From Pseudarthrobacter sp. MM222 (GTDB lineage Bacteria; Actinomycetota; Actinomycetes; Actinomycetales; Micrococcaceae): 64,000 nucleotides of DNA. The notes below the pieces were generated by a model. That model was not told the DNA's origin and made no database searches. It saw nothing but the letters and a program-made list of their open reading frames with translations. Shown here piece after piece: positions 33,389 through 56,400 of this stretch. How positions within the stretch are numbered: the stretch's first letter is position 1; every line of letters begins with the position of its first letter. The translations under genes were made by a program, and so were the position numbers. The stretch covers positions 3,844,001-3,908,000 of the forward strand of contig NZ_OX352321.1 in NCBI RefSeq assembly GCF_947090775.1, written 5' to 3'.

Positions 33389-34957
33389 TCAGGAACCCAG
33401 TTCCTCGGCAACCCTCCGGGCGCCGCGCACCGCGATGGCAACGCTCATCAGGGTGGGGTTCATCGCGGTCGCCGTAGGGATAAGGGCATTTCCGCCCACC
33501 ACGAGGTTCTCGTAACCCCACACCCGCGACCATGGATCCGCCACCGAAGTTCCGTCGTCCGCGGCGCCCATCCGCATGGTGCCCTGGTAGTGCAGGCTGG
33601 AACCGTTGGGCATCAGCCGCGGCTCGGCGACAAAGACGCCCAGGGCCTTACCGGCGCGGCGCAGCCGCTCGGTGGCCTGTGCGATCTCCGTTTCCTCCCG
33701 TTCAGTGAGCGCATACTCGATGGTCATATTCGGGAAGCCGCGGTAGTCCGGCTCGTTCTCGTCAAAGGTGACGGCGTCCTCATAGCGCGGGTGCTTGCGC
33801 AGGCCGTAGCCCATGTTGACGTAGCCCCAGCGGTTCTCGGAATACGGCGCGCCCGGCTCCATGGGGAACGGCGTGGTCTCGGTGTACATCACCTGGACGG
33901 AGAAAGGGTGCTCCGGCTCGGAGAATGGGATGCGGTTCACTGCCGCCACCGGATCGGCGGAATTCAGCGCCCGCCGGGCCAGCTCCGCACCGAGGTCTTC
34001 TTCCGTGGCGAACCGTCCCATCTTCTCGGCGTCCAATGCCACCGTGGAGATGACCACCGGATGCTCGGTCAGGTAGTGGCCCAGGGCCTTCGGGCGGACG
34101 CCCGAAGCCCACAGCAGCTGCGGGGACCGGAAGGCATCGGCGGCGACCACAACAATGTCCGCTGCCACGAAGGAGGTCTCCCCCGTGCGGAGGTCCTGGA
34201 CGGTGACGCCGGTGGCGCGGTGTCCGTCGAACTCCACCCGGCGGACCAGGGTGAGGTCGCGCAGTTCGAACTGCTTCGCGAGCGGGCTGTCCTTTTCGAT
34301 CAGCGGGCCGAGGACGACGTCGGCCCCGGCCCAGCGCACTGACCCGTCGGGCTGCGGGTCCCCGGCAACCGGAAGGGTGCCCACGCCGTACCCATCCGGC
34401 AGCTCGGCGCCGAACTCTTCATCGAGGAGGGTCCGAATGGCCTCACCAACGGCGGAATCCGCGAACGCGGCACTGTGGACGTGCAGCAGCTGCTTGGCGT
34501 CCTCAATCAGCCCGTCCCATTCGTCGTCGGCGATAAAGGGGATCTTTTCGCTGAAGGCGGGCGACGGTGTCGCGCAGGTCCAGTGGGCGCCCTGGCCACC
34601 AACGTTGGTGGCCGCAGCCGCGGCCGGGAAGGAGGAAGCGTGGGCGGAGCCTGCGCCGCCGAAGTCGAGGAGGTGGGTGCCCTGGCGGGCCGTGAACATG
34701 CCCTCGGCGACGGTGGCTGCCGGAATGCCAAGCGATTCCCGGTAGGCGCCGGCCTGCGGCCCCTGGGACATTTCCCGGGCACGCGCCTTCTCTGCAGGGT
34801 CGGGGATGTTGCGGACGCTCTCGCCGGGGACGTGGGTGAGCTGCGGCCCGGCCTCGAACATCACCACCCGCGCGTTCGGGACCTGCTCCAGGAGCACCCG
34901 TGCGTAAGTGGAACCGATGGGTCCGCTGCCGACGATGGCAATAGTTGGGTTGGACAT
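33389..34957 (-). CDS. CarA-like GMC/pyranose-oxidase-type glycoside oxidase (1)
   Basis: This 522-residue FAD oxidoreductase has an N-terminal Rossmann motif IAIVGSGPIGSTYA. NVGGQGAHWTCATP follows around His125, resembling the flavin-attachment segment of pyranose oxidases. A C-terminal active-site pair is His456 (SLHYQGTMRMG) and Asn500 (TAMNPTLMS). Bacterial members of this branch include the C-glycoside 3-oxidase CarA, which makes the 3-keto-glycoside needed for C-C cleavage. The start at 34957 follows AAAGGAG; the longer frame was rejected. It lies 16 bp downstream of the MFS gene. Confidence 0.8.
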   Translation of the reverse strand: MSNPTIAIVGSGPIGSTYARVLLEQVPNARVVMFEAGPQLTHVPGESVRNIPDPAEKARAREMSQGPQAGAYRESLGIPAATVAEGMFTARQGTHLLDFGGAGSAHASSFPAAAAATNVGGQGAHWTCATPSPAFSEKIPFIADDEWDGLIEDAKQLLHVHSAAFADSAVGEAIRTLLDEEFGAELPDGYGVGTLPVAGDPQPDGSVRWAGADVVLGPLIEKDSPLAKQFELRDLTLVRRVEFDGHRATGVTVQDLRTGETSFVAADIVVVAADAFRSPQLLWASGVRPKALGHYLTEHPVVISTVALDAEKMGRFATEEDLGAELARRALNSADPVAAVNRIPFSEPEHPFSVQVMYTETTPFPMEPGAPYSENRWGYVNMGYGLRKHPRYEDAVTFDENEPDYRGFPNMTIEYALTEREETEIAQATERLRRAGKALGVFVAEPRLMPNGSSLHYQGTMRMGAADDGTSVADPWSRVWGYENLVVGGNALIPTATAMNPTLMSVAIAVRGARRVAEELGS

Positions 34958-34973
34958 GATGTCTCCTTTGAAA

Positions 34974-36470
34974 TCAGGCCGAGAGGGATTCGGAAGTGGT
35001 GTTGGGAGCGGGAACGGGTTCGTCGGAGAGGCGGCCGTGCGGCAGAAGGACCGCCGCGACAATCCCCACCGCGTAGGTGGCCGCCAGGGCAATGAAAATC
35101 GGCGTGAAAACCGAGCTGTAGATTTGTGCCACGGTGGCCTGGATTGCCGGCCCGGCCCCGTGGACCAGCTGCGGCGTTAGAGTGGAAGCGTCAAGGCCTG
35201 CCGGCAAAAGAGCCGCGACGCCGAAGCCGATCACTCCGCCGATGACCGCCGTCGCCACTGTGGACCCCACCTGCCGTACCAGGTTGATGGTGGCCGTGAT
35301 GGTCCCGGTCTGGCTGGCCGGGGCGGCGCCCTGGACCACCGCGACGATCAGGCTCATAAACGCTCCCGTGCCCATGCCCACCACGGCCATCACCATCATG
35401 GGAACCCACAGCGGAAGGCCCGCGGGCAGCATGGCCATCACCAAAAGCCCGGCGGCCCCCATCGAGGTTCCCAGGATCGGGAAAATCCGGTATTGCCCGG
35501 TCCGGCTGGCAAGCCATCCGGTCAGCAGATTGCTGATCAGCATGCCGAACACCGTGGCGATGGGGACAAGGCCGGACACGGTGGCGCTGGTCTGGTAGGC
35601 CATCTGGAAGTACGTGGGCAGGTAGGCAGTGATGGAGAAGAGGCCGACGCCGATAATCGCCGAGAGTGCCGTGCCTGCCGCGATGGTCCGGTTGGCGAAA
35701 AAGTGGAGCGGCACGATGGGTTCGGGTGCACGCCGCTCGATGAAAAAGAAGGCAGCGAAGCCGGCGATGCTCACCGCGAGCGCGGCAGCAGTGGCGGGGC
35801 CGGCGCTCCGTTCGGCGGCCCAAGTAACGGCGAGTACCAGCGCCACCAAGGCGGTGGTGAAGACCGAGGCCCCGGCAATATCGAAGTGGCGGGGCATGGG
35901 GCCGGGCTCCAGGTGCGGAACGGCCACGAGCGCGAGGCCCAGGGCCGCTGCACCCACCGGGATGTTGATCCAGAAGACCCACTGCCAGCCCCAGTAATCG
36001 GTAATGGCGCCGCCGAGCACCGGGCCCACCAGGATCGCGATGGGGAAAGCGGCGCCAATTATGGCCATGTAGCGGGGCCGTTCCCGCTGGGTGGTGACGC
36101 GGGCAATGATCGTCTGGGACATCAACTGCAGGCCCGCGGAGCTCATGCCCTGCAGGACGCGCGCGGCAATCAGCCAGGCCATGTCCGTGGCGAAGCCGCA
36201 GGCCAGTGAGGCGGCCAGGAACATCACCAGCGAGAAGATGAAGATGCGGCGCGCGCCCAGCACATCGCCCAGTTTGCCGAGAACCGGCAGCAGCACCGTA
36301 CTGGCGAGGGTGTAGCCCACCACAACCCAGCTCATCAGGGTTAACGCGCCGAGTTCACCCGCAATGGTGGCAAGGGAAGTGGACACTACCGTGTGGTCCA
36401 GGGCACCGAGGAAGGAGACCGAAAGCAGGGAGACAACAAGGAGACGGAGTCTAAGAGGCGAAAGTGGCAT
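34974..36470 (-). CDS. MFS transporter, DHA2 (14-TM) type
   Basis: This 498-residue, strongly hydrophobic protein has about 14 membrane segments. It has the DHA2 signatures LDHTVVSTSLATIAGEL (motif D1), GKLGDVLGARRIF (motif A) and GPVLGGAITDYWGWQWVFWI (motif C). Such proteins export drugs or, in catabolic loci, move aromatic compounds. It is cotranscribed with the CarA-like oxidase, so export or import of a glycoside or aglycone is possible. A CATAAG-containing sequence lies about 130 bp upstream. Confidence 0.88.
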   Translation of the reverse strand: MPLSPLRLRLLVVSLLSVSFLGALDHTVVSTSLATIAGELGALTLMSWVVVGYTLASTVLLPVLGKLGDVLGARRIFIFSLVMFLAASLACGFATDMAWLIAARVLQGMSSAGLQLMSQTIIARVTTQRERPRYMAIIGAAFPIAILVGPVLGGAITDYWGWQWVFWINIPVGAAALGLALVAVPHLEPGPMPRHFDIAGASVFTTALVALVLAVTWAAERSAGPATAAALAVSIAGFAAFFFIERRAPEPIVPLHFFANRTIAAGTALSAIIGVGLFSITAYLPTYFQMAYQTSATVSGLVPIATVFGMLISNLLTGWLASRTGQYRIFPILGTSMGAAGLLVMAMLPAGLPLWVPMMVMAVVGMGTGAFMSLIVAVVQGAAPASQTGTITATINLVRQVGSTVATAVIGGVIGFGVAALLPAGLDASTLTPQLVHGAGPAIQATVAQIYSSVFTPIFIALAATYAVGIVAAVLLPHGRLSDEPVPAPNTTSESLSA

Positions 36471-36642: not shown

Positions 36643-37437
36643 CTACGCATCGAGCAGGGCACGGGTCAGTGCCATGTCCTGCAGCAGATCCTCCAGGTCG
36701 GCTGCCAACCCACCGGACAACGAGGCCTCGATCGCCCGGCGGAGCGCCACGCGCGCGGAGGACTCATAGCGCCCCGGAGCCCGAAACACCCCCTCGTTCG
36801 TGAAGGTCTCCACCCGGGCCAGCCCGGCGGGCTGGTCGACGGTGACTTCGGTCCGCACCTCGCCAAGGGCAAGCACCTGGAGCAGGCCGCCGGCATGGAG
36901 ACCACCGATTGCGGTTGCCGAAAGGGTGGCGGGAACCGTCTCGCCGTTGTAGCTGCCCGATTCCAGGAGTGCGATCCTGCTGTGCACAGTGGCAATGCTT
37001 GACCGAAGCGCCAGGGATCCGCCGGCGAGGGACCGCATCCAGCCAAAGCCGTCGCAGATGAGAACACCAAGGCCTGCAGCGGGGGCGGCGCACTCAACGG
37101 TTATGGTCCGGGCGGGGCTCCCGCGTCTTGCCGCAACCGCATCGGCTGCAACATCGGGGCGCAGGCGGGGCCGTTCAACGATCACCGGGATGTCTCCCGG
37201 CCACCGCCCGGACTCGAAGGCTTCCCGCGGAAGGACCCCAGGATCCGCAAGCACCACCGCCGACGCTCCGCCGCCGCGGGCCGCCAGCATCCCCTGCCAC
37301 CAGTCGCCCGTTCCGGGAACCACCGCCACCGCACCGCGCATATCATCGGTGAGTGCGGCACTGACCGGAAGCTCGGCGACAGCGGCCGTGTAGGCAGGCA
37401 ACGCGGTGAAGACGCTGAATGCGCGGTCCCGACTCAT
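36643..37437 (-). CDS. Unusual Gfo/Idh/MocA-like protein lacking the N-terminal nucleotide-binding motif
   Basis: This 264-residue protein is not clearly recognisable. The segment IPVIVERPRLRPDVAADAV resembles the EKP region of Gfo/Idh/MocA dehydrogenases. The C-terminal ESSARVALRRAIEASLSGG and LEDLLQDMALTRALLDA resemble their final helix region. The GxGxxG Rossmann start and the EKP lysine are missing. Its start overlaps the stop of a complete Gfo/Idh gene (ATGA), suggesting it is a non-catalytic partner or a degenerate paralogue. The function is unknown. Confidence 0.55.
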   Translation of the reverse strand: MSRDRAFSVFTALPAYTAAVAELPVSAALTDDMRGAVAVVPGTGDWWQGMLAARGGGASAVVLADPGVLPREAFESGRWPGDIPVIVERPRLRPDVAADAVAARRGSPARTITVECAAPAAGLGVLICDGFGWMRSLAGGSLALRSSIATVHSRIALLESGSYNGETVPATLSATAIGGLHAGGLLQVLALGEVRTEVTVDQPAGLARVETFTNEGVFRAPGRYESSARVALRRAIEASLSGGLAADLEDLLQDMALTRALLDA

Positions 37438-38474
37438 CGCTGCGCCCCTTCAAGAACCTTCGCAGCAGCAGCATCGGCCAGGTCAATTGCATAATGGGCG
37501 TCAGCCAACAGTTCGTCGTACTCCACAGGGGCATCCCCTTCAAGGAGCGAGGCCAGCAGGCGCCACTCGGCCACGTAGCCATCCTCGTCATCCCGCGGAT
37601 ACTCCGTCCACAATCCATCGATGCTCCGCACCCGGGTGGCAGCGCTTCCGGCATGGACAAAGGCGGGCGGGAAATTCACCTCGATTCGGTCATGGGAGGT
37701 GGCGATACTCATCCGCCAAAGGGCGTCCGCCCCCTCGGGAAGCATGGTCAGCGCCAACTGCACCAGGACCGCGCCGGCCCGGTACCCCACCAAGTAGCCA
37801 ATGGGGGAAACGACCCGCGCGTAGACAACCTCATCAATGCCGGGCGCGATGTCCCTCACCGCCGGAAGATCATGAATTGCGAGGCCGGTCAGCAGCTGCC
37901 TCACAATGCCTGCCGCCACGGCAGGGTTGCCAAGGTCCGGGCGTGCCCGCCCGGCAGCCTGGAAAGGACCGCCCTCGCCAACGAGCCGGTGGTACCTGTC
38001 ATTTGGCGGAAGCGCCAACGTCACGGAGATGGCCCGCACCCGGCCCTCCAGTGCAACGAGATGGTGCTTCGCGCGCTCCCATGCGGGGTCAAACAGATGG
38101 TTCGTTCCGACCAACAGGGTGGCGCCTGCCTCGCGGCAGGCGGAGACAACGCGGTCCGCTTCCTCCCTGCTGGTGGCCAGCGGCTTTTCACAGAAAATGG
38201 CGCGCTTGCCCGCGCTGAGTGCCGCCAGGATTTGGCGGGCGTGCTCACTGGGCGGGCTGCAGATTGCCACCAGGTCCACGGCCGGGTCGGCCAGCAGGTC
38301 CGCCTCCCCTTCCGACCAGCGGGCATCATGCCCTTCAGCCAGCGCCCGGGCGCGCCCGCTTCCCGCATCGGCAACGTGCACCACCTTGAACAGTTCCGCA
38401 AGCCGCCCCAGCACCGGCAGGTGAAGCGCCGCAACACCGGGCCCCGCGCCAATAATCCCCACGTTCCAAGGCAT
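37434..38474 (-). CDS. Gfo/Idh/MocA-family oxidoreductase (1)
   Basis: This 346-residue NAD(P)-dependent sugar dehydrogenase-type protein has a Rossmann motif VGIIGAGPGVAALHLP. AIFCEKPLATSREEADR near residue 90 holds the catalytic EKP lysine. The start at 38474 follows AAGGAGG; the upstream in-frame start at 38507 was rejected. It is first in a two-gene unit with 36643 and is divergent from a ROK regulator, with a CATAAGT site between them. It may reduce or oxidise a keto-sugar released from the glycoside. Confidence 0.85.
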   Translation of the reverse strand: MPWNVGIIGAGPGVAALHLPVLGRLAELFKVVHVADAGSGRARALAEGHDARWSEGEADLLADPAVDLVAICSPPSEHARQILAALSAGKRAIFCEKPLATSREEADRVVSACREAGATLLVGTNHLFDPAWERAKHHLVALEGRVRAISVTLALPPNDRYHRLVGEGGPFQAAGRARPDLGNPAVAAGIVRQLLTGLAIHDLPAVRDIAPGIDEVVYARVVSPIGYLVGYRAGAVLVQLALTMLPEGADALWRMSIATSHDRIEVNFPPAFVHAGSAATRVRSIDGLWTEYPRDDEDGYVAEWRLLASLLEGDAPVEYDELLADAHYAIDLADAAAAKVLEGAQR

Positions 38475-38504
38475 CGTCGCCCTCCTTCTTCTGTCACTAT
38501 TATT

Positions 38505-38511
38505 CATAAGT
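38505..38511. promoter_or_regulatory. CATAAGT motif, Gfo/Idh-ROK divergent promoter
   Basis: TTCATAAGTAGGGAATGA lies 31 bp upstream of the Gfo/Idh start and 71 bp upstream of the ROK start. ATTC and GAAT arms flank the core. It is one of five exact CATAAGT occurrences found in this half of the window, all near promoters of glycoside genes. Confidence 0.5.
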
Positions 38512-38581: not shown

Positions 38582-39844
38582 ATGACGACAGAGTCCACCC
38601 TCCGCTTCGGAGCCCAGACCGATGAAGTGACGAGCCTACTGAGGATCGTCAACCTGGTGCGGACGGGTGAGGCAACCACCCGCCCCGAAATCGGCAAGGT
38701 CACCGGCCTGGGCAGGGGTGTTGTCAGCCAGCGGGTGGATCAGGCCATCCAATTCGGCTTCCTGGGCGAGGGAGAATTCGGCGCCTCCTCCGGCGGCCGT
38801 GCGCCCCGGACCCTGCGCTTTCGCGCCGAGCGGGGGCGGATCATCGTCTGCGCCCTCGGAGCGGCCCACATCAGGGTGGGTTTGACGGCACTCGACGGCG
38901 ACGTCCTGGAGCATACGCACCGCACCTGGGATATTTCCCGGGGCCCGGAGAAGACCATTGAGGCAGTCATGGCCCTCGTGGACGACGTGCTGAAGAAGGA
39001 CTCCAAAGTGCCCGTCTGGGCCGTGGTGGTAGGCCTTCCCGGTCCGGTCGACTTTGCCTCCGGGCAACCCGTGTCGCCTCCTATCATGCCCGGATGGAAC
39101 GGCTTCGACGTTCGAACCCCATTCGAGGAGCGCTTCAACGCCCCGGTCTGGGTGGATAACGACGTCAACCTGCTGGCCCTGGGCGAACGTGCCCGCCGCC
39201 GGGACTCCCTTGCGGACCTCATCTACTGCAAGATCGGTTCCGGAATCGGTGCGGGACTGCTGTCCCAGGGCAGGATCCACCGGGGCGCGAACGGCGCCGC
39301 CGGTGACATCGGCCATGTCCGGGTCCTGGATTCCACTGCCCAGTGCCGCTGCGGCAAGATCGGCTGCCTGGAAGCCGTGGCCAGCGGCTGGGCCCTTGTC
39401 AGGGATGCGGAGCAGGCCATCAAGGATGGCGCAAACAGCTCCATGGCTCCGATAGTGAAAAAGGGAGCACTGACCCTTGAGGAGATCACCCTGGCAGTCC
39501 GGTCCGGTGACCCCTTGGCCATCACCCTGATTCAAAAGTCGGCGCGGGTAGCGGGCGAGACCATTTCAGCCCTGGTGAACATGTTCAACCCCAGCGTCAT
39601 CGTCATCGGCGGCGCCATGGGGTCGGCCGGTGAGGTGTTCCTGGCCGAAGTCCGGCAGCGGGTCTATGAACTGTCGCTGCCGCTTGCCACGCGCGATCTG
39701 ACAATCACCCTCTCCGTGGCTGACGAGCGCGAACCCCTCCGCGGCGGCGCCGAACTGGCGCGCGAGCAGCTGTTCGATGTCACCTTCCCGCGCTGGTTTG
39801 CTGACGGCCGCCCCTCACCGGAGCGGGTCGCAGTTCCCGCCTAA
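38582..39844 (+). CDS. ROK-family transcriptional regulator (glycoside locus)
   Basis: This 420-residue protein has an N-terminal winged HTH (ATTRPEIGKVTGLGRGVVSQ) and a ROK domain with GSGIGAGLLSQGRIHRGANG, GDIGHV and the zinc cluster CRCGKIGCLEAV. It is divergent from the Gfo/Idh pair. It is a candidate for the protein that binds the CATAAGT sites. ROK regulators usually respond to a sugar, which would fit control by a released sugar. Confidence 0.88.
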   Translation: MTTESTLRFGAQTDEVTSLLRIVNLVRTGEATTRPEIGKVTGLGRGVVSQRVDQAIQFGFLGEGEFGASSGGRAPRTLRFRAERGRIIVCALGAAHIRVGLTALDGDVLEHTHRTWDISRGPEKTIEAVMALVDDVLKKDSKVPVWAVVVGLPGPVDFASGQPVSPPIMPGWNGFDVRTPFEERFNAPVWVDNDVNLLALGERARRRDSLADLIYCKIGSGIGAGLLSQGRIHRGANGAAGDIGHVRVLDSTAQCRCGKIGCLEAVASGWALVRDAEQAIKDGANSSMAPIVKKGALTLEEITLAVRSGDPLAITLIQKSARVAGETISALVNMFNPSVIVIGGAMGSAGEVFLAEVRQRVYELSLPLATRDLTITLSVADEREPLRGGAELAREQLFDVTFPRWFADGRPSPERVAVPA

Positions 39845-39870
39845 GATTCGGCACCGCCGGGCGCGCCCGC

Positions 39871-40287
39871 TCAGGCCACGTCCCGGGACACACTCGGTAC
39901 CTGTGCCCGGTCACGCTCCAGCCGGGCCTCCAGATGGAACGGCAGGACCAGGGGCGAGCCGGGCCGCGCCTGCAGGTAGGGCACCATCAGCTGGAAGTCG
40001 ACGGCGACGGCGTGCGCCCCGCGTGACAGCTCGCGCCGGCACGCCAAGACAAGCCTGTCCTGCACGAACCACCACCCGGACTCCTCGCGCAGCGCGTCGG
40101 CACGGATAGTGCAGTCACCCAACACCACGCACAACTCCCTCGGTGCGACCGGAACGCCGTCCACTTCCACCGCGAGGCCAGCCACGCTGGACAGGGGCAT
40201 CGAGCGGATCCACGGCAGGCCAAGCCGCAGATCAAAACCTCCCGGAGTGGCGGTCAGCGCATCTTCGCGCAAAGCGGTTTCCAACAT
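39871..40287 (-). CDS. C-glycoside deglycosidase beta-subunit-like protein (CGDB), copy 1
   Basis: This 138-residue beta-rich protein has the CGDB (formerly DUF6379) pattern: LGLPWIRSMPLSSVAGLAVE near residue 22, WWFVQDRLVLACR near residue 72 and VDFQLMVPYLQ near residue 97. It resembles LPWYRSLWLSAV and the WFV/LLYMQ segments of the copies at 43674, 46259 and 53586. In known DgpBC/CarBC enzymes this small subunit pairs with a TIM-barrel alpha subunit. Here the probable partner is the divergent gene at 40356. The copy is more diverged than the others. Confidence 0.7.
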   Translation of the reverse strand: MLETALREDALTATPGGFDLRLGLPWIRSMPLSSVAGLAVEVDGVPVAPRELCVVLGDCTIRADALREESGWWFVQDRLVLACRRELSRGAHAVAVDFQLMVPYLQARPGSPLVLPFHLEARLERDRAQVPSVSRDVA

Positions 40288-40311
40288 GGCTTCCGTCCTT
40301 TATCCTGAAAC

Positions 40312-40327
40312 TGACATAAGTTTGTCA
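40312..40327. promoter_or_regulatory. Palindrome with CATAAGT between the CGDB and TIM-barrel genes
   Basis: TGACATAAGTTTGTCA has perfect 5-bp arms (TGACA/TGTCA) around TAAGTT. It lies 25 bp upstream of the - strand gene start and 29 bp upstream of the + strand gene. It is the most symmetrical example of the shared motif, placed to control both divergent genes. Confidence 0.6.
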
Positions 40328-40355
40328 TTAACAAGCATAAAGGGGAAGACGCCGT

Positions 40356-41366
40356 ATGGCTTCCGAAATTCCAAGCAGCTGGACGCTTTGCGCCAGCTCC
40401 TTCAACTGGACCCCGGACATCATCGCCGCCCGCCGGACGGCCCGGGACATAGTCACCGGCATCGCGGACTCAGTGGTGCAGACGATAGAGCTCGAGCCCG
40501 GGCTGGTGTGGCGGTCCTTCCCGGCTCCGCACGATGCCGAGGTCGATGAGCTGCGGAATGCCCTGGCGTCAAAGGGCGGGGCTGTCAGTATCGTCGGGGC
40601 CAGCCTGGACGACTTCACGCCTGCGGGACCACGTTCCGTTCAGGAGCGCCTGGATTTCCTGGTCCCCCAGATCCATGCCGCGCACCGCGTTGGAGCCAGC
40701 GGAATCCGGCTTCCGATCGGGCAGGCGGGGAGGGACTTGCTCACGCTGGTCCAGCCTCTCCTGCACGAGCTCGACCTGGTGCTGTACGAGGAAATCCAAG
40801 GGCAGCAGGCCCCCGGCAGCGCCGCCGTCGAACCGGCCCTCGAAGCGATAGGCGCCCTCGGAGATGACCACGTACGGGTGCTCGTGGACATCAGCATGCT
40901 GATGCCCGCCCTTCCCGTCACCTACCTTGAAGAACTGCGCCGGGGTGGCATGCCCCAGGACTTCATGGGGCGCCTGGAGAATGACTGGCGCGACCCGTCC
41001 ACACTTGACGCCGTGACCGCCGTGCTCCGCTCAGGAAACGTGCCGCCGCGGATCCACACCCTCTTTATGAACCTGCTCATCCGCTTTGGCCGCAGTGACG
41101 CGGCGGACCTGCAGGCCATCCTCCCCATAGTGGGCGCCTTCCACCTCAAGTTCTGGGACCTGCACGACGACGGCGGGCGGGTTTCGCAGCCGCTGCGGGA
41201 CCTGGGCGGCCTCCTGGGCAGCAACGGCTTCAGCGGCACGCTAACGAGTGAGTGGGGCGGCCACGAGTGGCTCCAGGACGATCCCACGGAGATGACGCGC
41301 CGGCACCTTGCCTTGGCGGAGATAGCCCTCGCGGAGGCAGCGCTGGTTGAGCCTGTCCAGAGCTGA
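40356..41366 (+). CDS. Alpha-like sugar isomerase/epimerase TIM-barrel protein, partner of copy 1
   Basis: This 336-residue AP-endonuclease-2-type TIM barrel keeps the four metal-ligand positions of the family: Glu (LVLYEEIQG), Asp (VRVLVDISM), His (GAFHLKFWD) and Glu (TLTSEWGGHEW). Its last motif, SEWGGHEW, parallels SSEWEGHAF of the alpha-like proteins at 44081 and 53586. It is divergent from the CGDB gene at 39871 with a palindromic operator between. It is inferred to be the alpha subunit of a diverged deglycosidase; substrate unknown. Confidence 0.7.
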   Translation: MASEIPSSWTLCASSFNWTPDIIAARRTARDIVTGIADSVVQTIELEPGLVWRSFPAPHDAEVDELRNALASKGGAVSIVGASLDDFTPAGPRSVQERLDFLVPQIHAAHRVGASGIRLPIGQAGRDLLTLVQPLLHELDLVLYEEIQGQQAPGSAAVEPALEAIGALGDDHVRVLVDISMLMPALPVTYLEELRRGGMPQDFMGRLENDWRDPSTLDAVTAVLRSGNVPPRIHTLFMNLLIRFGRSDAADLQAILPIVGAFHLKFWDLHDDGGRVSQPLRDLGGLLGSNGFSGTLTSEWGGHEWLQDDPTEMTRRHLALAEIALAEAALVEPVQS

Positions 41367-42463: not shown

Positions 42464-42474
42464 GTTTTTCCCTC

Positions 42475-46654: not shown

Positions 46655-46739
46655 CGAGACCTCCTTGTCTGCGGCATGCCTTGCCTCTGAGTGAAATGCC
46701 TGTGCTGGAACGAATTGGCCGCCTCGCGGCACTTCTTCA

Positions 46740-48299: not shown

Positions 48300-49072
48300 C
48301 GCCCCGCCACCAGTTCCTGGATGCGGCGCACCGACTTTGCCGAGTCGATGGTGGGGTAGTACTCGAGGCCGATAGGTCCGGTGTAGCCGCTATTCTGCAG
48401 GTCCGCGAGGCGGGCGGCCCAGTCGATGGATCCCGAGCCCGGTTCCCCGCGGCCCGGGGCGTCGGCGATCTGCACGTACTTGATGAGGTCTCCGGCATTG
48501 GCGAGCTCGGCGGCCACATCCTCGCCCTCTACGGTGGAGTGGTAGAGGTCGTAGAGGACGCCGAAGTTGGGCGAGTTGACGCCCTTGGCGATGTAGACGG
48601 CCTCCGAGGTCCGGTCCAGCAGGGCTCCGGGGTGGTCAACACGGATGTTTACCGGTTCGAGGACCAGGGTAATGCCGGAGCCCTCTATGTGCGCCACGCC
48701 CTTGGTGAAGATCTCGATCAGTTCGTCCAGCTGGTCCTGCCGCTTGCGGCCGCCGAAGCCGGTGCCGCTGCCCACCACGATGCGGGGGCAGCCAAGCTGA
48801 CGGGCAACCTCGACGCCGGCGTCGAGGCCGGCGTAGAAGGGCTCGTGGTTCTTGGGCGGGATCATGAACTGCATGCGTGGCTCGGCCAGCTGGGCGGTGA
48901 GCTGAAGCCCGGTTTCCTCGAGGGCGTCCTTGAGCGCCGGGATGTCCTTGCCGGTGGGACCCCACATTTCCACGGCGTCGAAGCCGGCGGCGGCTGCGGC
49001 CCGGACGCGGTCCGCGGCGCTGGCGCCTGCTTCGGCGAAGAGAAGGTCAATGTTGGGTGCGAGCTGGTACAT
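48296..49072 (-). CDS. Hydroxypyruvate-isomerase-like sugar isomerase (TIM barrel)
   Basis: This 258-residue short AP-endonuclease-2-type protein, in length and form like Hyi and OtnI, begins MYQLAPNIDLLFAEAG. Metal-site segments include LVLEPVNIRVDHPG (Glu), LYDLYHSTVEGED (Asp), YVQIADAPGRGEPG and GPIGLEYYPT (Glu). It is cotranscribed with the CarA-like oxidase and lies 119 bp after the importer genes. Isomerisation of a small keto-sugar is likely. Confidence 0.85.
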   Translation of the reverse strand: MYQLAPNIDLLFAEAGASAADRVRAAAAAGFDAVEMWGPTGKDIPALKDALEETGLQLTAQLAEPRMQFMIPPKNHEPFYAGLDAGVEVARQLGCPRIVVGSGTGFGGRKRQDQLDELIEIFTKGVAHIEGSGITLVLEPVNIRVDHPGALLDRTSEAVYIAKGVNSPNFGVLYDLYHSTVEGEDVAAELANAGDLIKYVQIADAPGRGEPGSGSIDWAARLADLQNSGYTGPIGLEYYPTIDSAKSVRRIQELVAGR

Positions 49073-49191: not shown

Positions 49192-50028
49192 TCAGCCTTT
49201 AAGGCCGCCGGAGAAGCCCTGGATGAAGCGTTTCTGCGCAAACAGGAACAGCGCCAGGATGGGGATCATGGACACGATCACGATGGCGAAAATCGAGTTC
49301 CACTTGGAAACCAGGGAACCGATGTAGTAGTACATGGCCACCGGCAGTGTCTGGTTGGCGGAGCCGCCCAGGAAGATCAAAGAGGTGAAGAAGTCGTTCC
49401 ACACGATGAGCCCCGCGAAAATGGTGACGGTACCGGTGGCCGGGGCCATCATGGGGAACACCACCTTGGAGAAGATCTGGGACTTGCTGGCGCCGTCGAT
49501 CGTGGCAGCTTCCTCATAGTCCGTGCCCAGCCCGCGGAAGAAGTTGGCATAGAGGAAGATCGAGAGCGGCAGGAGCATTCCGGTGTACAGCACGATCAGG
49601 CCCCATGCCGAACCCGTAAGACCCATGGCGCGCGCACCCATGTACAGCGGCACTGCACCGAGTTGCCCCGGAAGGATGATGGCGATCAGGAAAAGGTAGT
49701 AGGCGCCTTTGCTCCAGCGCCTGGTGCTGCGCGAGATGACGTAGCCCGTGACCGAACCGAGGGCCACAAGCCCCAGGATGCTTCCGGCGGTGATGATGCT
49801 GCTGTTGACCAAGCCCATCACCACGTTGGAGTTTCCTTTGGCGGACAGCACAGCCACGAAGTTGCTGAAGTCGGGGCTGGTTGGCGGGGCCAGGGCCGAG
49901 GTGGTGAGTAGTTCATTGTCGGGTTTGAGCGCCGTTGTCACCAGGAAGTAGAAGGGTGCGAGGAACAGCAGGGCGAGGCCCCACAGGCCGACTTCGCGGA
50001 GCAGGGTGAGCTTTGTGTAGCGGAACAT
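49192..50028 (-). CDS. Sugar ABC transporter permease, MalG type
   Basis: This 278-residue protein has six hydrophobic segments. It has the EAA loop LGTDYEEAATIDGASKSQIF near residue 170 and the usual C-terminal LFAQKRFIQGFSGGLKG. It follows the MalF-type permease by 3 bp. It is part of an importer placed at the head of the glycoside operon, so the substrate is probably a glycoside. No ATPase gene is present. Confidence 0.92.
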   Translation of the reverse strand: MFRYTKLTLLREVGLWGLALLFLAPFYFLVTTALKPDNELLTTSALAPPTSPDFSNFVAVLSAKGNSNVVMGLVNSSIITAGSILGLVALGSVTGYVISRSTRRWSKGAYYLFLIAIILPGQLGAVPLYMGARAMGLTGSAWGLIVLYTGMLLPLSIFLYANFFRGLGTDYEEAATIDGASKSQIFSKVVFPMMAPATGTVTIFAGLIVWNDFFTSLIFLGGSANQTLPVAMYYYIGSLVSKWNSIFAIVIVSMIPILALFLFAQKRFIQGFSGGLKG

Positions 50029-50031
50029 GGC

Positions 50032-50991
50032 TTAGTCCTCGGGGTTCGAACGCATCAGCCGCTGTTGGATTACGGCGAAGAACAGGATGATGGCGGCCAG
50101 CACCAGGGCCAGGGCGGCGCCGCCGCCGAAGTTCCCGAGCGCAAACGCCTGCTTGTAGACCTGCGTGGCCAGCGTTTCGGTGGCTCCGGCCGGCCCGCCG
50201 CCGGTCAGCGCCATGATGGGATCGAAGACGCGCAGTCCCTGGACGATTCCCAGCGTCGTGGCGATGGCGACCGCGGGGCGGATCGCGGGAAGGGTCACGT
50301 TGCGGAACCGCTGCCACAGGTTGGCGCCGTCAATGGCCGCCGCTTCCTCCACTTCCACGGGTACGCCGGCCAGGCCGGCCATGAAGATGACCATGGCGAA
50401 CCCGGTGGAAGACCAGACGAGCACCACCAAGACGGTCCAGATGGCCCACTGCGGGTCGGCCAGCCAGGGCTTGGCCTGGTCGCCGGCGCCTATTGCCGTG
50501 AGGAATGCGTTGAGCGGACCGTCAAACTCGAAGATGTACTTCCAGATGTAGGCCGTGGCCAGCGGGCTGAGGACTACCGGCATGAAGAAGAGGGTCCGGA
50601 GAATGTAGCGCGTCTTGACCACCCGGTTCAGCCCCAGCGCAATGATCAGCCCGGCGATGTTGCCCAGGAGGACCGAGCCGAAGGCCAGGAAGACAGTGTT
50701 TGAGAGTGCTCCGAGCTTTGTAGGGTCCTTGAAAATGGTCTCAAAATTTGCCCAGCCCGTGATCTTGAACGAGCCAATGCCCGTCCAGTTGGTAAAGGCG
50801 AAGAACCCCCCGACGCCGGTTGCCACGTAGTGGATGGCAAACACCAGTGCAATTCCGGGCAGCGCCCACCACCAGTGTCCGAACTGCATGGCGTGGCCCC
50901 GGGGGCGGGCGTTCTGGCCCGCCCCCGGAGTACGCATGCCTCGCCGGGATGCTTCAGCTGCTTCGCTTTTCGGTTGCATCGTCGCAGTCAT
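50032..50991 (-). CDS. Sugar ABC transporter permease, MalF type
   Basis: This 319-residue inner-membrane protein has a ~50-residue polar N terminus, then six hydrophobic segments. The EAA loop is VPVEVEEAAAIDGANLWQRF near residue 230. The start at 50991 (MTATMQ) was chosen for its AAGGAA upstream; the frame extending to 51063 overlaps the preceding gene and was rejected. It pairs with the MalG-type permease next to it. Confidence 0.92.
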   Translation of the reverse strand: MTATMQPKSEAAEASRRGMRTPGAGQNARPRGHAMQFGHWWWALPGIALVFAIHYVATGVGGFFAFTNWTGIGSFKITGWANFETIFKDPTKLGALSNTVFLAFGSVLLGNIAGLIIALGLNRVVKTRYILRTLFFMPVVLSPLATAYIWKYIFEFDGPLNAFLTAIGAGDQAKPWLADPQWAIWTVLVVLVWSSTGFAMVIFMAGLAGVPVEVEEAAAIDGANLWQRFRNVTLPAIRPAVAIATTLGIVQGLRVFDPIMALTGGGPAGATETLATQVYKQAFALGNFGGGAALALVLAAIILFFAVIQQRLMRSNPED

Positions 50992-51043
50992 GGTATTTCC
51001 TTGCTGTCCCTTTGAGTGGTCGGAACTTTGATAGTGAGAACGG

Positions 51044-52333
51044 CTACTGTCCCCAGGCAGCATCCATGGCCTGCAGGACCTGGTCAGGGTTCTTCTGGCC
51101 GGTGATGATGCCCTGGACGCCCGTCGCGAGTGCGTCGTAGACGGCGGAGTTGGGCCACTGGATGTTCGGCAGGGGGCCGTACTTCCCGTCCTTGATCAGG
51201 TCGCCAACGTTCTTGTAGGCGCCGCTTGCAAAGTCGTACTTGTCCAGCCCGCTGACCGGGAGTGCACCGTCGATCTCGGCGAATGCCTTGGTCTGCTCTG
51301 GCTCGGCCGCCCAGTCAAGGAAGGCCTTGGCGGCATCCTTGTTCTTTGAGGCTGCGTTGATCGAGAAGGCGTAGTTTGCGCTGGCGTAAACGTAGCTCTT
51401 GTCGGCGCCCTGTTCGGCCGGGAACGCGCGGACGGCGAATTCGGAGCCGGCTGCGGCTGACTGCAGCTGCTTCCAGCTGGGACCGGGGATAAAGCCGGCG
51501 ACGGCAGAGCCGCTGCCGAGGCCCTTGGTGATGGCGTCAAAGCCGGCGCCTGCGGCACCCTTCTGGAAGCAGCCCGCGTCCTTCAATTTGGCCACGGCCT
51601 CCAGGGCGGACTTCCAGCCGTCAGAGCCGGCGAAGGTCACCTCTTTGGCAGCTCGCTTGTCATTCCACTTTGGATCTTCCGCGTACACCCGCGAAGCGGC
51701 CAGGGACATCGCCATCAGCCCGGTGTTGGGAGGCGCCGCCCCAGCAAGGGCAAAGAGTGACTTACCGGAGGACTCGAGGGTCCTGCATTGCTGCTCCAGG
51801 GAAGCGAAATCGGCGGGGAACTCGCCGGCACCCTTGATAGCCGTTTCATTGGTCACCAGGGCAGCGACAGTAATTTCCGTAGCCTGGCCGTAAACTTTGC
51901 CGTCCGCTCCGAAGGTGCTGTCACTTCCCTCGGGAAGCAGCTTCTTGGCGGCCTCATCCAGCGGCTCAAGGAAACCGGCCTGGGACAGCGGCAGGATGCT
52001 GCGTCCGGTACCCGCACCGGGAGAAGTAACCACAACGTCCGAGGCGTTCCCCGCCTGCAGCTGCGTGCGAAGCGTCTGGTCGTAGGAGTCATTAGGCTGC
52101 GGGTTGAACGTGATCTTCACGTCCGAGTGCGACTTCATGTAGTCCTCGGCCAGCTTCTGGAAGGGACTCTCTATCGTGTTGGAGGTCGCAAACGACAGGG
52201 AAAATTCCTTGGCCCCTCCCGCGGCGGCGTTACCGCTGGCGGAGCCGCCACAACCGGTAAGGGCAAGGATTGCGACCGTGGGGACGGCGAGGATGCCGGC
52301 CTTGAGGCCTGAAGAACGACGGTGCTGTGTCAT
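51044..52333 (-). CDS. Sugar ABC transporter substrate-binding lipoprotein (glycoside locus)
   Basis: This 429-residue protein has a lipoprotein signal ending in ILALTGCGG and a Gly/Ala-rich linker, followed by a family-1 solute-binding domain (FSLSFATSNTIESPFQKLAE). It is the first gene of the long - strand glycoside operon. Start MTQHRR at 52333 follows AAAGG; an in-frame ATG seven codons upstream is possible. Two CATAAGT palindromes lie 86-119 bp upstream, between it and a divergent LysR gene. Confidence 0.92.
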   Translation of the reverse strand: MTQHRRSSGLKAGILAVPTVAILALTGCGGSASGNAAAGGAKEFSLSFATSNTIESPFQKLAEDYMKSHSDVKITFNPQPNDSYDQTLRTQLQAGNASDVVVTSPGAGTGRSILPLSQAGFLEPLDEAAKKLLPEGSDSTFGADGKVYGQATEITVAALVTNETAIKGAGEFPADFASLEQQCRTLESSGKSLFALAGAAPPNTGLMAMSLAASRVYAEDPKWNDKRAAKEVTFAGSDGWKSALEAVAKLKDAGCFQKGAAGAGFDAITKGLGSGSAVAGFIPGPSWKQLQSAAAGSEFAVRAFPAEQGADKSYVYASANYAFSINAASKNKDAAKAFLDWAAEPEQTKAFAEIDGALPVSGLDKYDFASGAYKNVGDLIKDGKYGPLPNIQWPNSAVYDALATGVQGIITGQKNPDQVLQAMDAAWGQ

Positions 52334-52418
52334 ATCCAGCCTTTCTGACTTCATTGTCGAAAAATTCGGGGGCAGTGACCCCGGTCACTCACCAGTATGC
52401 GGGACATGTGCCGAAAAG

Positions 52419-52452
52419 ACACATAAGTGTTTCCTATAGTGGACATAAGTCC
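52419..52452. promoter_or_regulatory. Two tandem CATAAGT palindromes in the importer/LysR promoter
   Basis: ACACATAAGTGT (52419-52430) and GGACATAAGTCC (52441-52452) each have 4-bp arms around ATAA. Their centres are 22 bp apart, about two helix turns. They lie between the importer operon and the LysR gene. Two phased sites of the same form strongly suggest cooperative regulator binding. Confidence 0.65.
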
Positions 52453-52576: not shown

Positions 52577-53521
52577 GTGGCGAATCATGCCCTGCTTTCC
52601 CGGCTTGACCTGAACCTGCTGATTTCTTTGGACGCGCTGATTACCGAGCGAAGCGTTACCAGGGCGGCCGAGCGGCTCCACCTAAGCCAGCCGGCGCTCA
52701 GCGCCTCGCTCGCCCGGCTCCGATCCCACTTTGGGGACCCGATTCTGGCCCGCCGCGGTAATGCTTATGAGCTCACCCCCTTCGCCCTCCGCCTCGCGGA
52801 GCACACCACCACCGCGCTGGAGGCCGCACGCCGCGTCTTCGAAAGCCAGGCCACCTGGGAGCCCAGCGAATCTGAGCGTGAGTTCTCCATCTACGGCTCG
52901 GATTACGGCTTCACTACCATTGGCCGGGTTGCTTCCGAGCTTGCAGCCGAGCGCGCCCCAGGAGTCCGGTTCCGGTTTATGCTCCACAATCCGATGGTGG
53001 TGGAGGACGCGGCCAACCGCCTTCGATCGGTGGACGGTATGGTAATTCCCCATGGATTCCTCACAGGGCTGCCCTACCTGGACCTGTGGAGGGACGGATG
53101 GGTGGCCGTGGTCTCCACGTCCAATGAAGCCGTCGGCGAGCAAATCACTATGGAGAACATCGCTGAACTTCCCTGGGTGATGACGTATCAGACCCGCTCA
53201 GCCTCAACCTCCGCGGAACGGCAGATCCAGCAGCTGGGCGTTGAGCCACGGGTGGACGTGGTTGTTGAAAGCTTCCAGTCCTTGCCGCATTTTGTGGTTG
53301 GAACCAACCGGATCGCGCTCATCCAGGCGGCACTGGTGCCGTTCGCTCTGCGCGTGGGCGGGGTTCGGATCCTGCCGCTGCCCTTCGATGCCACGCCGCT
53401 GGTTAATGCCTTGTGGTGGCACCCCGTGCACAACCGCGACTCCGAGCATGAGTGGATGCGGGGCCTCTTCAAAGACGCTGCTGACATCGTGGCAGCCGCC
53501 GCAACCAAGGAAGCCCCTTAA
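52577..53521 (+). CDS. LysR-family regulator of the glycoside locus
   Basis: This 314-residue LysR protein starts MANHALLSRLDLNLLISLDA and has an HTH at about residues 26-45 (VTRAAERLHLSQPALSASLA). A ligand domain related to that of the LysR at 32372 follows. It is divergent from the importer operon and next to the tandem CATAAGT palindromes, and so is a strong candidate to bind them. GTG start at 52577. The gene ends 64 bp before a convergent fusion gene, with a hairpin between. Confidence 0.9.
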   Translation: MANHALLSRLDLNLLISLDALITERSVTRAAERLHLSQPALSASLARLRSHFGDPILARRGNAYELTPFALRLAEHTTTALEAARRVFESQATWEPSESEREFSIYGSDYGFTTIGRVASELAAERAPGVRFRFMLHNPMVVEDAANRLRSVDGMVIPHGFLTGLPYLDLWRDGWVAVVSTSNEAVGEQITMENIAELPWVMTYQTRSASTSAERQIQQLGVEPRVDVVVESFQSLPHFVVGTNRIALIQAALVPFALRVGGVRILPLPFDATPLVNALWWHPVHNRDSEHEWMRGLFKDAADIVAAAATKEAP

Positions 53522-53530
53522 ACGCCCCGA

Positions 53531-53556
53531 TGCCCGGCCGGCTAAACGGACGGGCA
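53531..53556. terminator. Hairpin between convergent LysR and fusion genes
   Basis: TGCCCGGCCG and CGGACGGGCA form a 10-bp stem with one mismatch around loop GCTAAA. Its position between two gene ends fits a bidirectional terminator. Confidence 0.55.
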
Positions 53557-53585
53557 CCGAGGCTATGAGGCTTCGGTCTTGCAGG

Positions 53586-55064
53586 TCAGGCTGATGCCAG
53601 CGCCGTCCGCATGCTCTGGCGGATGAGGTCGTGCTGCTGACGGACCAGCAGCAGCGGATCCACCTCACCGAGCTCGGCGAAGGCATGGCCTTCCCACTCG
53701 CTGGACCAGTAGCCGCGGTAGCCGCCTTCGACGAATACGCGGACCAGTTCCGGATAGTCGATGGCAGGCTCGTTGCCCCGCTCATCAATATCGTAGAACT
53801 TTGCGTGGACGTGCATGATTTGCGACATGATGTCGGCCCACTCCTTCGGGCTGACGTGGCCGTGCATGTTGAAGGCCAGGTGTGCGAAGGACCCAAGCCG
53901 TGCAGGATCAAAGTCGCGTCCCCGCAGGTAGGCAATGAACTCCTCCTGCCGCACCCGCATCGGGGCCTCAGTGCCCCAGATAGCCTGCAGCCTTTCCACA
54001 GCTTCATCGTCCAGACCGGCACGGCGAACCGCGCGCAGGAGCGTGGGAGACATGCTGTGCATGGTTGAGGAGAAGTCAGCCACGAAGCCCAACAGCGGTG
54101 AATCAAGCTCAGCGTAGACGTCGCGGACCTTCATGATCTCCGGCGAGTTGGGCCCCAGCGGTGCATGGATCTCGTAGGCAAGTTTGAGTTCGAGGTCCTC
54201 GGCGAGCGGCAGCAGCCGGCGAAGCAGCTCCGGCTTCGCACTCTGGATGCGGACGAGCGGGAACCCGAGCTTCTTGGCGCCGCGGAAGAGTGTGTGCGTG
54301 AACTCGTATTCCTCATCCGGGGTCATGTCGCGGTCACGGCGGCGTCCCATGTCCAGGTTGGCGCCGAAAGAGCTGGCGGTGAAGCCGTGTTTGTCGAAGG
54401 CCTCCTGCCACGAGCGCACGAAGTCGTCAGTCACGTTGGGGTAAGTAGGCAGGACCTGCGATGCCACAATCTCGATCCCGGGGCCGATACCCAGCTCGGC
54501 CACGCGGTTCAGCAGACCGTCGAAGTCGTACCAGCCGGCCCGGAATTCGGCACTTGCCGAGTACAGGGTGAGCCCCAGCGAGAACGGATCGTCCTCCGCT
54601 TTCGCCGGCGGCGGCGTGACCGCCGTCGTCAGTTCCGGTGCCACCGCAGCCCTGTCCGTGACAGTCAGCTCCAGTGCCTGGTTCACGAAGTTGGGAACGT
54701 ACACGCCGGGACCGCCGTCCTGGCCGGGAGCAATCTGCATGTACGGCAGGCGCAGCTCACCGATGAGCCGGACGGTGTGCTGCTCGCCCAAGGCAACAGG
54801 GCTCTCCGTCTTGGCGATAAGCAAGGGATGTTCCTGGAGGTACCAGAGCGTTTCGCTTTGAGCGGGCAGGTCCGGAAGCGCATAGCGGACACCCCCCAGT
54901 TCCAGGGACAAGTCCTCGGCGGGGATTTCGTTGCCGTCGACGGTGAGTCGCAGGCTGGAGACCGAGGAGAGCCACAGGCTCCGGTACCACGGCAGAGTCA
55001 GGGCAAGCGCGAGGCCGTCGGGGTGGGTGCGGAGGCTGGCATCGTCAAGAAGTCCGTTGGGCAT
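53586..55064 (-). CDS. Fused beta-alpha C-glycoside deglycosidase-like protein (1)
   Basis: This 492-residue protein joins two domains that are separate subunits in CarBC/DgpBC enzymes. Residues 1-135 are a CGDB domain (LPWYRSLWLSSVSSLRLTVD, LRLPYMQIAPG). A Pro/Ala-rich linker follows (about 137-160, with TPPPAKAED). Residues 160-492 are an alpha-type TIM barrel with all four expected metal ligands: Glu298 (YEIHAP), Asp330 (VADFSSTMHS), His420 (MHVHAKFYDI) and Glu456 (SSEWEGHAF). Both halves closely resemble the separate proteins at 43674 and 44081. A fusion of that pair with reversed order is likely. It is probably catalytically active. Confidence 0.85.
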   Translation of the reverse strand: MPNGLLDDASLRTHPDGLALALTLPWYRSLWLSSVSSLRLTVDGNEIPAEDLSLELGGVRYALPDLPAQSETLWYLQEHPLLIAKTESPVALGEQHTVRLIGELRLPYMQIAPGQDGGPGVYVPNFVNQALELTVTDRAAVAPELTTAVTPPPAKAEDDPFSLGLTLYSASAEFRAGWYDFDGLLNRVAELGIGPGIEIVASQVLPTYPNVTDDFVRSWQEAFDKHGFTASSFGANLDMGRRRDRDMTPDEEYEFTHTLFRGAKKLGFPLVRIQSAKPELLRRLLPLAEDLELKLAYEIHAPLGPNSPEIMKVRDVYAELDSPLLGFVADFSSTMHSMSPTLLRAVRRAGLDDEAVERLQAIWGTEAPMRVRQEEFIAYLRGRDFDPARLGSFAHLAFNMHGHVSPKEWADIMSQIMHVHAKFYDIDERGNEPAIDYPELVRVFVEGGYRGYWSSEWEGHAFAELGEVDPLLLVRQQHDLIRQSMRTALASA

Positions 55065-55095
55065 TGTTGTTCTCTTTACTGGGAATTGGGATGGG

Positions 55096-56400
55096 TCAGG
55101 TAAGTTCGCCGGTGATGCGGCGGATCAGGGCGTGTTGGCGCCGCACTTGCTCAATGGCGCGCCATGGCGTGCGTTCGCCTTCATATTCACTGGAGAGATA
55201 ACCGGTGTAGCCGGATTCCTTGAGGGCCTTGAGGACGGGCAGCCAGGGAATCTGTCCGTCTTCCAGTTGCTCGTTGATGTCGTGGAACTTCGCTTGGACG
55301 AACACCACGTACTTGGCGATATCGGCGAAGTCGGCGGGGTCGACGCCGATGCCGTCGAGGAAGGCGGGCCGGGTCTCGCGGGTCTCACCTTCGCGCAGCG
55401 GGATGGGCCGGTCCTGGAAGATTCCGGTGTCGATGAGCAGGCCGAAATTCTTGGTTCCGGTCCGTTCGATGAGGGAGATGTAGTCCTCGACGACGGGGTG
55501 TCTGATGGGCGTCGGCGAATGGATCTCCGGGCAGATGATGATCCCCAGCTCGTGGGCCAGATCAAGGGAGCGCTCCACGGACTCGGTCCAGATGGGGTCC
55601 GGGACCAGATCGCTGGACACCACGCCGATCTTGGGGCGCACGAACCCGAACCCCAGCCGGTTGGCCAGGCGCAGGTCCCGCTGCAGGGCCTCCGCACCCT
55701 CCACCACCGTCATGGTCCGTCCCGGGTGGAGGCGCGTGTCTATCCAGGAGCCGTAGTTGGTGGGCTCCAGGGAGTACTTCTCGAGGAGTCCGAACCAGTT
55801 ATCAATCCAGGCGGGGGACGGTTCCGGATAGTTGGGGATGTGCCCCTCCCCCAGAATCTCGACGCCGGTAGCGCCGACGTCCGCGACCGACGCCAGGGCC
55901 GTTTCCAGGTCCATGACCGTGCCGTAGTCGCCCATGAAGCTATACAGGGAAACGCCGTAGCGGAAGGAGCCTTCGCCGCCTTCGGGCGACAACGTCACTT
56001 TGCGGCTGGTCCGGTACACGCTGGGCTGGTGCTCCAGCGGGATATAGGACATGCGCAGCCGCAACTCGATGGAGAGTTCGTGGACGCCCTGCGGCAGGCC
56101 GCCGTCGAGGGGGACGGTCACCACGGCCGCCTCCTCCAGGGGCCAGCGCACCCCGTCGCTCTCCCAGAGCTGCCGCAGGGTGTAGGTCCGCCCGCCGAAG
56201 GTCCAGAGCGGAACTTCGGGCCCGACGTCGACGATGTCGACAATGTCGCCGATGCGAACGGCGATGCCATCGATGAGGGACGCGGCCATGCCCCGGTAGG
56301 AAGGCATCCGGACCCGGAACTGAAAGCCGGTTACACGTCCGCCATCCGTTACGTTGCGGAAGCCGACGGACTGGATGAGGTCTCTTTCGAGAAGCATCAT
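55096..56400 (-). CDS. Fused beta-alpha C-glycoside deglycosidase-like protein (2), diverged
   Basis: This 434-residue protein has an N-terminal CGDB-like domain (residues 1-135: RMPSYRGMAASLIDGIAVRI, ELRLRMSYIPL) and, with almost no linker, a TIM barrel (about 146-434). Predicted metal positions are Glu292 (CPEIHSPT), Asp324 (LLIDTGIFQD) and Glu405 (LSSEYEGE). The usual His of HAKF is Gln369 (FVQAKFHDI), although a His lies three residues on. It lies 31 bp upstream of the other fusion gene on the same strand. It is diverged, so substrate or reaction may differ. Confidence 0.78.
   Translation of the reverse strand: MMLLERDLIQSVGFRNVTDGGRVTGFQFRVRMPSYRGMAASLIDGIAVRIGDIVDIVDVGPEVPLWTFGGRTYTLRQLWESDGVRWPLEEAAVVTVPLDGGLPQGVHELSIELRLRMSYIPLEHQPSVYRTSRKVTLSPEGGEGSFRYGVSLYSFMGDYGTVMDLETALASVADVGATGVEILGEGHIPNYPEPSPAWIDNWFGLLEKYSLEPTNYGSWIDTRLHPGRTMTVVEGAEALQRDLRLANRLGFGFVRPKIGVVSSDLVPDPIWTESVERSLDLAHELGIIICPEIHSPTPIRHPVVEDYISLIERTGTKNFGLLIDTGIFQDRPIPLREGETRETRPAFLDGIGVDPADFADIAKYVVFVQAKFHDINEQLEDGQIPWLPVLKALKESGYTGYLSSEYEGERTPWRAIEQVRRQHALIRRITGELT

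Follow-up and report, generated by a model that had tools for sequence, protein, structure and literature searches.

A conserved multi-lyase C-glycoside locus of Pseudarthrobacter sp. MM222 with one divergent enzyme pair of the same fold

The window, i.e., the whole 64,000-nucleotide stretch that was analysed, covers positions 3844001-3908000 of NZ_OX352321.1, the single contig of the 4.29-Mb genome of Pseudarthrobacter sp. MM222; all coordinates below are positions within the window. A first-pass annotation had read positions 33389-56400 as an expanded car/dgp-like locus of C-glycoside deglycosidases (CGDs) with five alpha/beta sets, two of them fused, and had suggested a system for several C- or O-glycosides with different aglycones. 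Family and PDB matches confirmed a locus of this type with several CGD-type enzymes. The C-glycoside locus with its several lyases was judged to be real and conserved; it is of an ordinary kind and larger than the examined parts of the literature describe. A complete pathway that runs from oxidation through elimination and hydration to reduction is likely encoded here; its substrates would be plant C-glycosides and probably aryl O-glycosides, and the alpha1/beta1 pair would be a retained, divergent enzyme of the CGD fold.

In a PF19906 (CGDB) profile search all five predicted beta domains exceeded the Pfam cut-off; they were the only ones in the genome, and none of the 14 control genomes gave a match. 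A PF19906 beta part was combined with a PF01261 alpha part, adjacent or fused, in alpha2/beta2, alpha3/beta3 and fus1. These genes were located on the minus strand at 43674-44072 (beta2), 44081-45139 (alpha2), 45159-46262 (alpha3), 46259-46732 (beta3) and 53586-55064 (fus1, a beta-alpha fusion), as was a second beta-alpha fusion, fus2, at 55096-56400. The fifth pair consisted of beta1 (39871-40287, minus strand; PF19906, 34.9 bits) and alpha1 (40356-41366, plus strand). An orthologue of AgCGD2 (7dnm) was recognized in alpha2 (765 bits over residues 1-352), and fus2 resembled the fused CGD 8qrz of Microbacterium testaceum (738.7 bits). The NCBIfam search assigned no family to alpha1, alpha2, alpha3, fus1 or fus2. 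The plus-strand open reading frames (ORFs) 43946 and 54931 were rejected as genes, being overlapped by minus-strand genes with family matches.

The size of the locus proved not to be exceptional. CGDB domains were present in 30 of the 199 genomes searched (MM222 included), and 16 genomes carried five or six of them; five each were also found in two published strains, Pseudarthrobacter siccitolerans 4J27 (L135) and Arthrobacter globiformis NBRC 12137 (L076). The block occurred in all 15 fetched sister genomes with five or six CGDBs, and in 14 of them the order from the oxidase gene OxA2 to fus2 was identical on a single contig, the genes of G070 being distributed over two. The regulator gene LysR1 was displaced in G113 and absent from the stretches fetched for G015 and G056. 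G106 had three CGDBs, with no complete fusion in the part fetched, and smaller, different clusters were present in G007, G094, G051, G037 and G193, plus a second site in G024. Further, a scan of genome contigs with an alpha1 alignment yielded 66 loci, 61 of them at 52-90% identity to the query, mostly from Micrococcaceae and Microbacteriaceae, and five at 30-32%. Searched up to 10 kb from alpha1 with an identity threshold of 33%, the 61 loci contained beta1 (61), the ROK regulator (58), Gfo_p (52), alpha2 (51), alpha3 (50), the 36643 gene (48) and G3Ox (43). At least seven of the 61 appear to coincide with fetched sister genomes (e.g., L078 and G056), so the two sets overlap and are not additive. 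The 20 searched genomes behind alpha1 loci, picked for carrying an alpha1-type gene and thus not a survey, had five or six CGDBs in 12 cases, four in five and two in three. Among the homologues listed, the closest alpha1 of named source belonged to P. siccitolerans (90%). Two loci labelled as Planococcus sp. APC 4015 (L092) and Stenotrophomonas maltophilia P13 (L118) carried the actinobacterial locus, likely due to contamination or mislabelling, and were kept in the counts. A SnoaL-like gene (PF13577 in the L087 copy) lay between beta2 and alpha2 at L087:14708-15493 and L135:13724-14758; its homologues occurred in 32 of the 66 loci and in 7 of 25 sister-island entries, and none in the window.

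The residues were numbered as in AgCGD2, where E147, D179, H269, K271 and E305 bind the metal and H149 is the base. All five ligands together with H149 and E307 were kept in every aligned orthologue of alpha2, alpha3 and fus1 (17/17 rows for each of the first two and 16 for fus1, because the sequence entered as 'fus1' for G106 is its alpha2), and the catalytic set of alpha3 was complete. For G056, the iso352 entry of this alignment came from a wrong ORF, and three homologues of smaller clusters were among the fus2 rows. The beta-subunit tyrosine was retained in all rows, those of the window included, of beta2 (53), beta3 (47), fus1 (6) and fus2 (8). Alanine mutants of the catalytic histidine are reported to show 10.4% and 1.8% activity and those of the glutamate 49.8% and 1.9% (PMC8563793), and more than 99% of the C-glucoside activity of PuCGE was lost upon the beta-subunit substitution Y39F (PMC10628242). 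Since the catalytic His/Glu and the beta-subunit tyrosine are kept in the four enzymes, beta-elimination is the best reading of alpha2/beta2, alpha3/beta3, fus1 and fus2.

Candidate genes for further steps lay around the lyases. Both predicted oxidases contained GMC domains and matched characterised glycoside 3-oxidase or pyranose oxidase structures: G3Ox (46740-48299, minus strand) was an orthologue of PsG3Ox (7qf8, 1094.6 bits, residues 1-519), and the second one, OxA2 (33389-34957, minus strand; start picked from the ORF translation), had pyranose oxidase 8qve as the top PDB match (401 bits). The importer parts (49192-52354, minus strand; two ABC permeases and a solute-binding protein) and the LysR and ROK regulators named in the first-pass annotation were likewise backed by family matches. 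The product of iso352 (41459-42517, minus strand; the true start is probably somewhat downstream of the annotated one) matched the 2-hydroxy-3-keto-glucal hydratase 8ro4 (132 bits, E 2.5e-37) and is a probable enzyme of that kind. A closer PDB match of it, 2zds, is named 'Putative DNA-binding protein' and is probably a sugar enzyme as well. The Gfo/Idh protein Gfo_1 (42475-43677, minus strand; Pfam match) scored 368.8 bits against the NCBIfam levoglucosan dehydrogenase model, below the cut-off of 650, and is a probable 3-keto-glucose reductase. In the levoglucosan pathway, the keto-glucal is hydrated by LgdB2, annotated as a sugar phosphate isomerase, and 3-keto-glucose is reduced by LgdC of the Gfo/Idh type (PMC7676230). 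An aromatic-catabolism operon at 23697-30773 (plus strand; Pfam and NCBIfam) encoded an extradiol dioxygenase-like protein, a fumarylacetoacetate (FAA) hydrolase, a cyclase, an FAD mono-oxygenase, an amidohydrolase, another FAA hydrolase and a short-chain dehydrogenase/reductase (SDR). In 34 of the 66 loci, a homologue of the dioxygenase was encoded no more than 10 kb from alpha1; the amidohydrolase, the second FAA hydrolase and the SDR were each found in 13 of the 25 fetched island entries, several of which stop before the operon. This operon is likely the aglycone branch.

That the region serves an entire pathway is suggested by the hydratase/reductase pair, an upstream motif common to several genes (see below) and the aromatic operon next to the block. 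It was proposed that the glycoside would be taken up by the ABC importer and oxidised at C3 of the sugar by either GMC oxidase. A metal-dependent beta-elimination by one of alpha2/beta2, alpha3/beta3, fus1 and fus2 would then free the aglycone, leaving 2-hydroxy-3-keto-glucal, which the 41459 hydratase would convert to 3-keto-glucose and the 42475 Gfo/Idh enzyme to glucose, while the aglycone would be degraded by the neighbouring operon. The locus also offers candidate genes for what follows bond cleavage: hydration of the glycal, reduction of the keto-sugar and breakdown of the aglycone. Gene content, conservation, residues and modelled folds are observed here, and from these we infer all reactions and what each paralogue acts on.

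The view that all five are equivalent lyase pairs was not supported: in alpha1/beta1 the histidine, its glutamate partner and the beta-subunit tyrosine are all replaced. The substitutions H149Q and E307G were present in 120/120 alpha1 homologues among those listed, and the metal ligands were kept in all 120. Q149/G307 was also found in 17/17 orthologue rows, 58/58 close loci and 5/5 distant loci; these sets overlap, and the count omits L131 and L132, whose alpha1 hits were each broken into two parts, as well as L133, whose hit was short. The tyrosine of beta1 was replaced by isoleucine in the window and in 60/60 loci with enough coverage (L118 was left out), the column being equated with Tyr39 of PuCGE from the alignment ends.

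The alpha1/beta1 pair is retained, often fused and under purifying selection. A full-length alpha1 ORF of 329-347 amino acids was present in 16/16 sister entries, and natural beta1-alpha1 fusions were recorded, after rechecking, in 27 of the 61 loci, not counting L133, where alpha1 precedes beta1. The CGD fold was recovered in a model of the L087 fusion, and the PDB chains nearest to alpha1 were CGDs. The median dN/dS of the pair was 0.17 and 0.24; values of 0.13-0.25 were obtained for beta1, alpha1, the 36643 gene and Gfo_p versus 0.04-0.06 for alpha2, alpha3 and iso352, with beta3 at 0.145. Full-length ORFs, invariant motifs and dN/dS below 1 excluded alpha1 as a pseudogene. In L100 an in-frame stop was flagged inside the tblastn span; as a 329-residue P. 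enclensis protein (P0097) is listed among the homologues, this stop is probably the gene end. At NCBI, many alpha1 homologues carry the name 'restriction endonuclease subunit R', apparently by an annotation error.

Two Gfo/Idh-fold genes accompany the pair. A Gly-rich NAD motif and the EKP lysine are hallmarks of the Gfo/Idh/MocA family. The dehydrogenase Gfo_p (37434-38507, minus strand; PF01408) had EKP in 51/51 sequences, whereas the 36643 protein (unk264; 36643-37437, minus strand), the gene of which overlaps that of Gfo_p by 4 bp, had the fold with neither of the two motifs and is a probable non-catalytic partner. The plus-strand ORF 37419 was discarded as a gene; it had no family match, whereas the minus-strand ORF encodes a Gfo/Idh protein.

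Further, the upstream regions were compared. A palindrome search of intergenic regions was weak, but it pointed to the string ACATAAG, which was tested afterwards against a background rate of 0.010 per 180 bases. The divergent beta1/alpha1 promoter region (40288-40355) contained the motif GACATAAGT at 40313-40321, and two ACATAAGT sites lay at 52421 and 52443 upstream of LysR2 (52577-53521, plus strand). The window had seven ACATAAG sites, those within 27-57 kb being 36601, 40314, 46769 (just upstream of beta3), 52421 and 52443. In the sister entries, the string occurred upstream of beta1 and alpha1 in 16/16 and in two copies upstream of the importer/LysR2 in 16/16, as well as upstream of ROK (10/16), MFS (7/16), fus2 (2/15) and Gfo_p (1/16); Hyi, OxA2 and G3Ox each gave 0/16. 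In 49 further loci, the genomes of which are related so that hits are not independent, it preceded beta1 (19/48), beta3 (14/33), ROK (5/46), MFS (4/15), Gfo_p (4/40), alpha1 (4/49), LysR2 (2/11), Hyi (2/20) and fus2 (2/7). It was absent there upstream of iso352 (0/36), Gfo_1 (0/38), beta2 (0/40), alpha3 (0/37), G3Ox (0/22), fus1 (0/6), OxA2 (0/13) and the 36643 gene (0/11), and the exact string was missing upstream of beta1 in more than half of these loci. From this distribution, alpha1/beta1 probably belongs to one regulon with the importer and the canonical lyases.

Judged by its residues, alpha1/beta1 is probably not a C-C lyase. It would most likely act, alongside Gfo_p/unk264, as an isomerase or epimerase of a 3-keto-sugar intermediate, or else catalyse elimination on less demanding, O-linked substrates. 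A tentative possibility is that the CGD scaffold has given rise here to a new catalytic class: a two-domain, metal-dependent enzyme that would leave the glycosidic bond intact and rearrange the 3-keto-glycoside or its keto-glycal product, with a partner Gfo/Idh dehydrogenase composed of a catalytic and an NAD-less subunit. The rearrangement could be, e.g., an epimerisation at C2 or C4 via the metal-ligand glutamates, as in the 3-keto-glucoside 4-epimerase YcjR, which has the barrel fold in common; if true, non-gluco C-glycosides could enter the pathway.

We consider it rather unlikely that the five pairs are all lyases of C-glycosides that differ in their aglycones, with another base, e.g., His234, replacing His149 in alpha1/beta1. 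The fold and closest PDB chains, the intact metal ligands, the shared upstream motif and the invariance of H234 in 13 aligned alpha1 homologues are in line with this proposal, but the His, Glu and beta-subunit tyrosine, mutation of each of which reduces the activity of known CGDs, are all missing. Equally doubtful is an eliminase specific for 3-keto-O-glycosides, for which the tyrosine would be dispensable: PuCGE Y39F retained much of its O-glycoside activity, with a 2.4-fold loss (PMC10628242), but AtOGE H134A was devoid of activity on an O-glycoside (PMC10628242), so that the cleavage of O-glycosides should also suffer from the missing histidine of alpha1. That the pair is a pseudo-enzyme, regulatory or without catalysis, is improbable; the loss of catalytic residues and an evolution faster than that of alpha2 and alpha3 would fit this, but many residues, the metal ligands among them, are invariant, and the beta1-alpha1 fusions recur.

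Some observations weigh against the proposed pathway with its four eliminating lyases and one divergent pair. H269 was replaced by Q in 19/19 fus2 rows, the other catalytic and metal residues being kept; the crystallised M. testaceum enzyme 8qrz has Q at this position as well. Given their similar residues, some redundancy among the four CGDs is conceivable. The reading of the alpha1 active site is drawn from an alignment, and among its five distant relatives the partners had F, M, Y and Y at the tyrosine position, with no partner found for the fifth. As the tyrosine is retained in two of these four (L139 and L140), its loss is not a trait of the whole Q/G clade.

The alpha domains of the paralogues shared 22-56% pairwise identity. 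In a tree obtained by a quick search, with long-branch warnings mostly for distant rows, alpha1, alpha3, fus1 and fus2 each formed one clade (SH-aLRT 99) spanning Micrococcaceae and Microbacteriaceae, and so did alpha2, save one distant row. The fused counterpart of alpha2/beta2 was fus1, 56% (alpha) and 44% (beta) identical to it and placed in a sister clade. Five related enzymes within 17 kb might bring to mind that the block was amplified locally and recently in MM222; this is contradicted by the separate clades in both families (alpha2 save one row), the low identities and the synteny with sister genomes, and is extremely improbable. The paralogues are old and divergent, which fits the earlier suggestion of different aglycones: AgCGD1 of A. 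globiformis reportedly acts on C6 and AgCGD2 on C8 glycosides (PMC8563793, section 8), and we infer that alpha3 corresponds to AgCGD1.

Among known systems, CarABC/AgCGD shares a GMC oxidase and alpha/beta CGDs with the present locus. Mori et al. described one pair for Microbacterium sp. 5-2b and two CGDs for A. globiformis (PMC8563793), whereas the genome of strain NBRC 12137 has five CGDBs. Similarly, Taborda et al. reported two CGD pairs near psg3ox of P. siccitolerans 4J27 (PMC10646112), the gene order of which is identical over the 21 kb fetched, whereas this genome has five CGDBs, two of them within long reading frames (529 and 432 codons), and includes the alpha1/beta1 pair. The published picture of C-glycoside catabolism in soil bacteria, with two pairs, is extended to a five-enzyme set recurring in actinobacterial genera, with alpha1/beta1 as a new part of the locus: a very conserved subfamily, the residues of which predict a different reaction. 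Searches of CC-licensed PubMed Central papers found no paper on an alpha1-type subfamily, five CGDs per locus, DUF6379 or a non-hydrolytic glucoside pathway. The fused M. testaceum CGD (8qrz, 8un2) matched fus2 over the full length, whereas fus1 and the beta1-alpha1 fusions fall in other paralogue groups. The levoglucosan LgdA-B1-B2-C system with the 8ro4 hydratase follows the same order of reactions and has a homologue in 41459, but the present locus would start from glycosides, with GMC oxidases and CGDs. The CGD subunits of DgpABC/Dfg from gut bacteria are homologous, whereas the first Dgp step employs a Gfo/Idh oxidoreductase instead of the GMC oxidases found here beside Gfo/Idh proteins of putative role.

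The other genes of the block were LysR1 (32372-33334, minus strand; PF00126, PF03466), a DHA2-type transporter of the major facilitator superfamily (MFS; 34974-36470, minus strand; PF07690, with an EmrB-like score below the NCBIfam cut-off), the ROK regulator (38582-39844, plus strand; PF00480) and the hydroxypyruvate-isomerase-like barrel Hyi (48296-49072, minus strand; PF01261, below the NCBIfam cut-off). Elsewhere in the window, an aminoglycoside-phosphotransferase-family (APH) protein at 17815-18699 adjoined GDPD and metallophosphatase family matches, and a solitary protein with a type I restriction HsdR N-terminal domain (PF04313) was encoded at 59982-61073.

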